The position numbers were made by a program, and so were the translations under genes. DNA of 64,000 nucleotides from assembly GCA_015485495.1 (NCBI GenBank), contig WFTL01000057.1, positions 1-64,000 on the forward strand, given 5' to 3'. Source of the stretch: Planctomycetaceae bacterium. Its GTDB lineage: Bacteria > Planctomycetota > Planctomycetia > Planctomycetales > Planctomycetaceae. The notes beneath the pieces were generated by a model. It had not been told where the DNA came from. It did no database searches and was given only the letters and a program-made list of their open reading frames with translations. This document shows, piece after piece, positions 3,027 to 5,713 of the stretch; the stretch's first letter is position 1, and each line of letters begins with the position of its first letter.

Positions 3027-4025
3027 TCAGAACGCGTCTGGCACATTGCCGTCGTTGCGCTGAGCGGCATTGCGCCAGGTCTGCAGGTCGATGCTGTCGC
3101 TGACGGTCTGCACAGAACCGTCCATCAGCAGCACCTGCACGATTCCGGGATGATAGCTTCGCGATGTCACGGCTGCGTAGGTCGGGGTGGTGCAGGGTTT
3201 GTCTTCCCGGCACGACGTGTAATCCCCTTCGTTCGTTGTGCCGCCGGGAATGATGAGTTCGGAGTTCGGCGGCAGAGCGGCCGTGGCACCGCTCTGATGC
3301 ACCCGCCCGTCAACCCATTCCGTATGGCCGCTGTCGGCCTTGTTGGTGCCGCCCATGTCGACCAGTGCCTGAACATCGGCCGGACCGGTCGGCAGGGTCG
3401 CCGTTCCGAAATCTCCGTCCCGGTTGTAGGGCGTGTATGCCTTCACCTCCATGAACGCCATCGTGTTGGTCATCCCGTCGGTGAAATCACGGGGGCGGAA
3501 CGAAACGTTGGGCGCAAACGCTCCATTCCCCGGCCGCTGGCTCGCGTTGTCCCACACGTTCCATGTCCCGCCGTTGTAGCCGTAGCTGAGCGGATAATGA
3601 ATGGCCGTTCCTCCGGATGTGCGTGCCTTGTCATTGATCTCGTCCGGGCACAGAAATGTGGTGACCCGCTGACCGGCGATGCCTTCGTTGACCGGATCTT
3701 CGTACGACTGGGAGAAATCGCCGATGGCGTACAGGTTTGCCTGTTCCAGAAAAGGCAGCAGCCGGGCCTGCACCGACCAGTCGCCTCCCGTCGTATCGAC
3801 TGTGGCAATATCGGAAACGAAGGACGGCGGAAACCGTGTGTTGACGTCCAGATAGTTGTGCAGAGCCAGACCGATCTGTTTGAGATTGTTGCGGCAGTGC
3901 GTTCGCCGAGCGGCTTCACGAGCCTGCTGGACGGCCGGCAGCAGCAGGGACACCAGAATCGCGATGATCGCAATGACGACCAGCAGTTCAATGAGCGTGA
4001 ACCCGCGACGATTGGGACGTGGCAT
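3027..4025 (-). CDS. DUF1559 (SBP_bac_10) protein with prepilin-like N-terminus
   Basis: 332 aa. The N-terminus RRGFTLIELLVVIAIIAIL is a type IV prepilin signal: cleavage after Gly8, Phe9 at +1 and Glu13 at +5, followed by one hydrophobic helix. The region after it (LLPAVQQAREAARR, then CRNNLKQIGLALHNY) is the family hallmark. The C-terminus contains the usual GIVQVLLMDGSVQTVSDSID block. The family is greatly expanded in planctomycetes. It is probably exported or envelope-attached and its biochemical role is not established, though Pfam also files it under solute-binding proteins. It is transcribed alone. A perfect 7-1-7 palindrome resembling a Fur box lies about 75 bp upstream (4101-4115), which hints at metal-responsive control. 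Confidence 0.93.
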   Translation of the reverse strand: MPRPNRRGFTLIELLVVIAIIAILVSLLLPAVQQAREAARRTHCRNNLKQIGLALHNYLDVNTRFPPSFVSDIATVDTTGGDWSVQARLLPFLEQANLYAIGDFSQSYEDPVNEGIAGQRVTTFLCPDEINDKARTSGGTAIHYPLSYGYNGGTWNVWDNASQRPGNGAFAPNVSFRPRDFTDGMTNTMAFMEVKAYTPYNRDGDFGTATLPTGPADVQALVDMGGTNKADSGHTEWVDGRVHQSGATAALPPNSELIIPGGTTNEGDYTSCREDKPCTTPTYAAVTSRSYHPGIVQVLLMDGSVQTVSDSIDLQTWRNAAQRNDGNVPDAF

Positions 4026-4099
4026 GACAAGTGATCCTCGATGGTCTGTAGGGAAAGCTCGTGCCCGGACACCCCTGAAAACCGGACGGCTGGTATAGA

Positions 4100-4122
4100 T
4101 TGAGACTGAGTCTCAGTGTCAA
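4100..4122. promoter_or_regulatory. Fur-box-like palindrome upstream of DUF1559 gene
   Basis: TGAGACTGAGTCTCA at 4101-4115 is a perfect 7-1-7 inverted repeat, the geometry of a Fur-family site. An imperfect second 7-1-7 unit overlaps it at 4107-4121, offset by 6 bp as in classic extended Fur boxes, and the outermost TTGA and TCAA also pair. It lies 75-97 bp upstream of the DUF1559 start at 4025 and about 280 bp upstream of the divergent gene at 4400. The rest of 4026-4399 shows no gene. Binding of a Fur, Zur or PerR protein is inference from geometry alone. Confidence 0.6.
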
Positions 4123-4399
4123 TGATCTTAGGGGGAGCGTTCGCTCGCACAATATCGGGGTCCGGATTTCCTGGAAAAATCCGGACAATTGGAAAGCGGA
4201 CCGAGCAGGACACGGCAGCCCGTCAGCAGGCAACAGATGACAAACGGTCCTGGAGGTCCGGAAAAGGCAGTGGCGAAAAACGCGGTACGGTCACCGGGTC
4301 AGAGGGCCGGCCCGCCGTTCATCGAATTCCGTGTTCGGTCCACTCGGGACAACTGGCCGGACTGAACAACTGCGGTTCTCGGAACCTGCCGGTTTCCCT

Positions 4400-5713
4400 A
4401 TGATGCGCAGCCTGCTGATCTTCCTGCGATGGATTCTTCGGGATTCGGGCGGAACCGTTATCCTGCATCAACCGGACGCTGTGTTTCCACTCGATCACAC
4501 TTCTCGACGCCTTCTGGCTCGCCGCACGGCAGCCGTGTCAATCTGGGCCGGCCTGCTGGTGCTGGCCCTGTTTCTGTGGCATCTGCGGTCCGAAGGGGCG
4601 CAGACTGGTGTGCCGAGCGAGTCGATTGCCGTGATTCTGGCGGCTTTCACTGGTCTGGTCAGCCTGTTTGCGTGGATGCTGTTTCGACCGGCCCGAGGCG
4701 TTTCCGCGGAGACTCCCACGTTGCTGCTGGCCGGCATGGCAGCTCTGTTTCCTCCCTGTGTCATTGCTCTGTGCATCGTGCCGCCGGAATCGTCTCTGGC
4801 GGGCTGGCCTGCCGGAATTCTGTTTCTGCTGCTGGTCGTGTCGTTGATGAGCCCGATTCCGGAGGAATTTTTCGGTGTTCCGCGGAGTCGTCACAGTTAC
4901 CGGGAAGCGCTGACAATGATTGATCTGTCGGCCGATTCCCTGATTGATGCCTCGCCCGACTGGCTGGCTTCGCCCCAGGTCACACAAAACGTTCCCGATA
5001 CGGATCGGCCGTCTCTGGCACCGCGCGCCTGGCAGGTTGAGGACCTGCTGACGGATGAGCGGCCGGAGCGCGGTTCGGGACGAGGGTGGCGGAGGCAGCG
5101 GCGGCAGCGACCTTCGGAAGCCACCGCTTCGGGGGACGAAAAAGGTCGACGCGATTCCGAACGGCCTCTGCCGTTCCGATTGTTCCGGGGAAGTCGGCTG
5201 CGGCCCGACCGGAAAGACAGGCCGGCCGAAGGTGTGGATCGTCCACCACGAATGCCGGCTGTGGTGGGCACCCGATCTGTCCGGGCAGACAGCGGTCCGG
5301 CGACGCAGCAGTCCGCGGCCAGCGGGATGCCGGCGGCCGCCCCGTCTGCAGCAGCCGGCGGGGCAGGCGTTCTGCCGTCTGTCGATCGGGTGCGAGGCGA
5401 CATTCAGGTTGTTTCCGAACAGCAGCAGGCCCGGTTCGAACGCGTACAGGATGACATGGGAGGGGAGATGGTCGAAGGGATCGTGGTGATGCACTTCGAG
5501 CCGGGCCAGAAGCGTGCCAACGTCCACATTCCTTTTTCGCCGCCGCTCACCTCATCACCCGATGTGGAATCGCATCCGATCGATCACGACCAGCTTCGGG
5601 TGAAAGTTCCGGAACGGCGTCCCTGGGGAATCCGCATTGAAGGCCGCCGATCGGATGCGGACGCGGCCGAAGATGTCCAGGTGGCGTTTTCCGCCATCTG
5701 TGTTTCGCGTTGA
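4400..5713 (+). CDS. Membrane protein with four helices and Arg-rich linker, unknown function
   Basis: 437 aa from the ATG at 4400 (a second ATG follows at 4403). Four hydrophobic helices are visible (about residues 44-62, 78-98, 107-128 and 136-153). They are followed by a long low-complexity, strongly Arg/Pro/Ala-rich linker (about 200-345). A compact C-terminal part (about 350-437) has VVSEQQQARFERVQDD, then EGIVVMHFEPGQKRANVHI and a VPERRPWGIRIEGRR stretch. The folded ends joined by a disordered basic linker suggest a membrane-anchored protein with a cytoplasmic tail. I do not recognise a named family. An in-frame start upstream at 4331 is possible but would add residues that look non-coding. 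Confidence 0.75.
   Translation: MMRSLLIFLRWILRDSGGTVILHQPDAVFPLDHTSRRLLARRTAAVSIWAGLLVLALFLWHLRSEGAQTGVPSESIAVILAAFTGLVSLFAWMLFRPARGVSAETPTLLLAGMAALFPPCVIALCIVPPESSLAGWPAGILFLLLVVSLMSPIPEEFFGVPRSRHSYREALTMIDLSADSLIDASPDWLASPQVTQNVPDTDRPSLAPRAWQVEDLLTDERPERGSGRGWRRQRRQRPSEATASGDEKGRRDSERPLPFRLFRGSRLRPDRKDRPAEGVDRPPRMPAVVGTRSVRADSGPATQQSAASGMPAAAPSAAAGGAGVLPSVDRVRGDIQVVSEQQQARFERVQDDMGGEMVEGIVVMHFEPGQKRANVHIPFSPPLTSSPDVESHPIDHDQLRVKVPERRPWGIRIEGRRSDADAAEDVQVAFSAICVSR

Follow-up and report, generated by a model that had tools for sequence, protein, structure and literature searches.

In the window, by which the whole analysed stretch of 64,000 nucleotides is meant, a gene for a DUF1559 protein is preceded by a Fur box-like palindrome that is shared within the same genome with feoAB and a bfd-like gene, is conserved with orthologous genes in relatives, and frequently lies there between divergently oriented HemP and DUF1559 genes. 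The palindrome is very probably an operator of the resident Fur, through which the DUF1559 promoter would be repressed, and released along with feoAB and bfd at iron starvation. Fur boxes as such are well known; new relative to the literature searched, in which subscription journals were mostly not covered, is that a DUF1559 pseudopilin gene is among the most frequent targets of such a box and lies divergent to HemP, mostly in genomes that lack TonB receptors. Planctomycete genomes carry DUF1559 genes by the dozen: in excerpts of two papers, 68 DUF1559 genes, two of them essential, are given for P. limnophila (PMC10632474) and 74 for R. baltica (PMC2754498), and DUF1559 is described in both as of unknown function. 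A search for DUF1559 and Fur, with most subscription journals outside its range, found no report; one for DUF1559 and iron found, in the excerpts returned, no report of iron control, and the iron passage met there concerns NifU.

Palindrome and promoter region in the window

The perfect 7-1-7 inverted repeat TGAGACT-G-AGTCTCA (TGAGACTGAGTCTCA) occupies window positions 4101-4115, and a second 7-1-7 unit (TGAGTCTCAGTGTCA, 4107-4121, two mismatches to TGAGACTNAGTCTCA) overlaps it at an offset of 6 bp. An extended imperfect inverted repeat with 12-nt arms, 92 percent complementary, surrounds both units (4099-4123). The gap between the box and the ATG of the DUF1559 gene is 75 bp (4026-4100). A preliminary description of this DNA had given the repeat, the second unit, the distance and the coordinates in the same way, and all were confirmed on the sequence. 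The site is like known Fur operators, which consist of 7-1-7 or overlapping 7-1-7 units, in its half-sites, 1-nt spacer, TGA...TCA ends and 6-bp offset, and the motif also precedes feoAB, bfd and hemP-type genes. Its half-site TGAGACT differs, however, from the textbook TGATAAT, and the binding of Fur here is predicted from the sequence.

A -35-like hexamer, TTGACA, reads towards the DUF1559 gene from the distal end of the repeat (4117-4122, minus strand), and a 17-nt spacer from it would contain the whole box. The pair is only suggestive as the DUF1559 promoter, because the hexamer after that spacer, TCTATA (4094-4099), is a poor -10; a promoter scan at this gene returned nothing meeting its criteria, and no canonical -10 was seen. 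A second perfect inverted repeat (GTCCGGATTT, 7 nt, AAATCCGGAC) was noted at 4160-4186, past the Fur-like box and before the plus-strand gene that comes next. For the plus-strand gene predicted at 4400-5713 (437 aa) there was no NCBIfam match, and for the longer form of this ORF (4331-5713) no Pfam match. Downstream of the DUF1559 gene, two overlapping plus-strand ORFs (1355-2053 and 1846-2715) resemble a single transposase divided between two reading frames; ORFs 1355-2053 and 1552-2715 had no match in Pfam.

Distribution of the motif in the genome and its relatives

The pattern TGAGACTNAGTCTCA was scanned with mismatch tolerance over the 4.67-Mb genome, with the reversed pattern as control. 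At up to two mismatches, four sites were found at three places only, in front of the DUF1559 gene, of feoAB and of a gene for a Bfd-like [2Fe-2S] protein. One site was exact and three were within one mismatch, against 0.017 and 0.75 expected from uniform bases; the reversed pattern had no site at up to one mismatch and seven at up to two. Since the count at up to two mismatches (four) is below that of the control (seven), the evidence from this genome alone is the location of the sites. On contig C118 the box precedes a FeoA gene followed by FeoB (Pfam FeoA and FeoB_N/FeoB_C; TIGR00437 feoB), and on contig C53 the Bfd-like gene (Pfam Fer2_BFD). Both boxes directly follow clear promoter-like pairs, and at feoA a second unit again overlaps the first at offset 6 (three mismatches). 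The scan for which the preliminary description had called thus located the motif at feoAB and, in addition, at the Bfd-like gene. As for DUF1559 genes other than that of the window, the motif was located at orthologues in most relatives examined and at none within the genome itself, where only one of about 21 DUF1559 genes carries a box at up to two mismatches.

A single protein of the genome matches the FUR family over the Pfam cut-off. Its best matches among solved structures are named Fur, and it matches the Fur, Zur, PerR and Irr models of NCBIfam, in each case below the equivalog cut-off. Four matches to prepilin peptidase (PF01478) were obtained in the same genome. Neither a DtxR-family repressor nor a match to the TonB-dependent receptor barrel (PF00593, 0 matches) was found there, and these absences carry some doubt because the assembly consists of 180 contigs and is 98 percent complete.

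Matches to the window protein were sought in 59 genomes including its own, which were taken as planctomycetes from their DUF1559 content and from named records, and 54 of them gave a match at E <= 1e-40. The loci of the best-scoring 30 of these 54, one per genome, were chosen by protein similarity alone, and 29 were counted, as one locus ends before its promoter. In 27 of the 29, the window included, a box at up to two mismatches precedes the prepilin motif by no more than about 350 bp; leaving the window aside, the count is 26 of 28. L087 was read from a separate comparison, and in the other rows the reversed pattern came no closer than four mismatches. The two exceptions, L081 and L085, are members of a paralogue group that lacks the box. 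In a footprint of 38 genes of the window's clade, which includes genes fetched for an adjacent box and omits the clade gene L287 (three mismatches; counted in the tree), box positions carry 1.0-1.9 bits and the flanks, past a few adjoining bases, at most 0.3 bit. The second unit at offset 6 is present in 20 of these 38 genes at up to three mismatches, with 1.3 expected from shuffled flanks. An alignment of the window with two genomes of the same genus and two of the same family likewise showed the box to be kept and the flanks not. Over the 59 genomes, 184 sites at up to one mismatch were found, compared with 36 for the reversed pattern.

Gene neighbourhoods were mostly different between genomes. 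A conserved operon around the DUF1559 gene was considered in surroundings of up to 17 kb (40 regions and the window) and dropped, because no gene group besides DUF1559 was common to more than seven regions. In 7 of 41 regions (among them L097:7053-7607, L101:9141-9710 and L102:9161-9703), a small gene for a lipoprotein-like protein of no assigned family was observed near the DUF1559 gene with the box. One relative has, 112 bp behind such a boxed gene and on the same strand, an unboxed paralogue (L102:6804-7871 and L102:7983-8990, minus strand), and the two probably form one transcript.

To classify the targets of the box, 72 distinct sites at up to one mismatch (part of the 184) were sorted by the ORFs starting within 435 bp; these sites were chosen by box and not by gene, and two known DUF1559-facing sites and some others were skipped. 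The targets comprised 27 DUF1559, 12 Bfd, 9 FeoA, 8 HemP, 4 TPR, 2 PepSY and 1 flavodoxin. The 27 DUF1559 sites, recognised by the C-terminal domain, correspond to 25 genes, with two sites per gene at two loci and a weak match in one gene. Fourteen of the 72 sites face none of the classes tried, and one of these (L032) faces a FeoB-like ORF. In several genomes a TPR gene has a box, either one in common with HemP or a separate one (L258:971-1720, L029:637-1401 and L263:2203-2955; the L258 gene is a TPR match), and it is a probable further member of the iron regulon.

Boxed DUF1559 subfamilies and their proteins

The box marks particular DUF1559 subfamilies and not the whole family. Among 91 prepilin-type ORFs of named records (80 loci, fetched by similarity and not by box; the DUF1559 domain not confirmed for each), only one was boxed at up to two mismatches. 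In a FastTree phylogeny of 193 genes, the box state requires 14 changes, compared with at least 44 in 200 label shuffles, and the clustering itself makes no use of the box. Boxed genes make up 38 of 64 in the window's clade (support 100), 12 of 15 in a second clade (support 92) and 9 of 114 outside both, most of these nine being from loci fetched by the box; the proportions reflect sampling, because part of the genes were fetched for an adjacent box and part as unboxed paralogues. The counts independent of the choice by box are the 27 of 29 and the 1 of 91 given above. Of the 26 unboxed genes in the window's clade, 22 are from one paralogue group, three are other copies and one has a site with three mismatches.

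A sensor-kinase-like gene, identified by reading of ORFs, was observed next to the unboxed paralogue in 8 of 20 stretches and beside the copy in the window's own genome as well, with response regulators also nearby in part of these cases. For example, L128:7262-8602 and L128:5832-7259 (minus strand) adjoin an unboxed DUF1559 paralogue matched at C118:9098-10078 (plus strand). The unboxed sister group may possibly be under a two-component system instead of Fur. FeoA, Bfd and HemP, each searched with a single query, were not found beside the unboxed paralogues in the 20 stretches.

The DUF1559 gene of the window (3027-4025, minus strand), the presumed target of the box, encodes a protein of 332 aa with a full-length match to PF07596 over the curated cut-off (E 4.8e-54), a prepilin-type N-terminus (PF07963, N_methyl) and an H-X9-DG motif. 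The full-length match and the prepilin N-terminus are shared with the DUF1559/SBP_bac_10 family (PF07596) in general, whereas its subclade is distinguished by the Fur-like box and by the nearly invariant residues K195, H234, E236, D268 and E274. These residues are nearly invariant in both the window's clade and the unboxed sister group and rare in the other DUF1559 proteins compared; for this comparison the unboxed group was compiled manually along the order of the tree, and three of its genes lie among boxed ones. A link between the box and these clade-specific residues was rejected, since they occur in the unboxed paralogues as well and are missing from the second boxed clade. The five residues could possibly form a ligand site, in a part of the structural model that is partly of low confidence. 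H234, E236, D268 and E274 are kept as a candidate ligand site for the window's clade, though the set occurs in unboxed paralogues and is missing from the second boxed clade.

The AlphaFold model of the protein (pLDDT 81.5) is pilin-like, with the clade-specific region (about 199-280) largely of low confidence. Its nearest structure among type IV pilins and type II secretion pseudopilins was Thermus PilA4 (6xxd_A), a weak match (Z 4.9, rmsd 3.5, 119 aligned residues), and the head domain of the window protein is much larger than in those proteins. Foldseek gave no match with E <= 0.001, with PilA4 (6xxd_A) at E 0.4.

Divergent HemP genes and proposed regulation

HemP (PF10636) was found in 37 of the 59 genomes, and HemP loci were examined in 30 of these 37, one per genome. 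A box at up to two mismatches lies upstream of HemP in 22 of the 30 loci (control, 0). In 19 of the 30, HemP is divergent from a prepilin-type, mostly DUF1559, gene within 600 bp, the partner being recognised by the prepilin motif alone. Eight of these 19 genes belong to the window's clade, seven of them boxed (G001, G002, G003, G006, G017, G029 and G030) and one (G043) with three mismatches, and eight others belong to the second boxed clade. Both relatives of the same genus, G001 and G002, have the divergent HemP/DUF1559 pair with an intergenic box. No match to HemP over the threshold was obtained in the window's own genome, and the strongest functional link is therefore one seen in relatives; a HemP remnant beside the window gene was also sought, and nothing convincing was found (best E 0.49, elsewhere in the window).

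The classical neighbour of hemP is a TonB-dependent haem receptor. The relatives resemble the known Fur-controlled HemP promoters in having the box upstream of hemP, but in the 19 loci a prepilin-type gene occupies the other side, and hemP was not found in the window's own genome. A TonB receptor over the family cut-off is absent from 27 of the 37 HemP genomes, and from 16 of the 19 genomes with the divergent pair (two with a sub-cut-off match) versus 5 of the 11 without it. In a Fisher test on the presence of receptors (3 of 19 versus 6 of 11), which ignores relatedness and takes the sub-cut-off cases G013 and G029 as absent, p was 0.035. Over all 59 genomes, no significant association was found between HemP and TonB receptors (p 0.17).

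From the sequences we infer Fur as the binder, iron as the signal and repression as the effect. With plentiful iron, Fur carrying Fe2+ would occupy the overlapping 7-1-7 units and shut off the DUF1559 promoter, and iron starvation would free the gene along with feoAB and the Bfd-like gene. The product would then be processed by prepilin peptidase and located in the envelope. The Fur-type, metal-responsive site proposed in the preliminary description is supported by the sites at iron genes of the same genome, by conservation with orthologues, and by the feoA, bfd and hemP boxes of relatives.

That the palindrome arose by chance and has no function is hardly credible. The count in the genome itself at up to two mismatches, which is not above the reversed control, would fit such an origin, but it is contradicted by the conservation data: the box is kept in 27 of 29 loci chosen regardless of it from the best 30 of 54 genomes while the flanks are not conserved, the motif is common to feoAB and bfd, and sites outnumber those of the control by 184 to 36 over the 59 genomes. 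An operator that is real but answers to another regulator or metal, whether the single FUR protein acts like Zur, Mur or PerR or the repressor is an unrelated one, is improbable, though more conceivable than chance. FUR-family paralogues bind similar palindromes, and the FUR protein matches the Fur, Zur, PerR and Irr models alike, all below cut-off. Its best sequence matches are nevertheless named Fur, the common targets of the box are the iron genes feoA/feoB, bfd, hemP and flavodoxin, and a DtxR-family repressor was not found in the genome.

With Fur as the most probable regulator, the role of the protein is much less certain. The prepilin-type pseudopilin may work in the envelope in getting iron or haem, a tentative reading drawn from the association of the genes. 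It is equally conceivable that the control by Fur is real and the protein unrelated to iron transport, being a surface pseudopilin that serves attachment, secretion or a general response to starvation. Some surface structures of other bacteria are under Fur, and the prepilin-type N-terminus and pilin-like model would suit such a role, as would the response of R. baltica DUF1559 genes to heat, cold and salt described in an excerpt of PMC2754498. Against it, divergent pairs with HemP involve DUF1559 genes from two separate boxed clades, and a TonB receptor over the cut-off is absent from 16 of the 19 genomes that have such a pair. A more specific proposal, and a rather doubtful one, is that DUF1559 pseudopilins under Fur form the envelope component of a route for acquiring iron or haem in planctomycetes without TonB-dependent receptors and that HemP is their divergent partner; the window's own genome would have kept the pseudopilin half, still with the same box.

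A putative conserved iron switch on defined subfamilies, shared with hemP in many genomes, offers a specific starting point for the function of one branch of DUF1559. What DUF1559 proteins do thereby becomes approachable in a simple way, through the response of a few named genes to iron in a tractable planctomycete.
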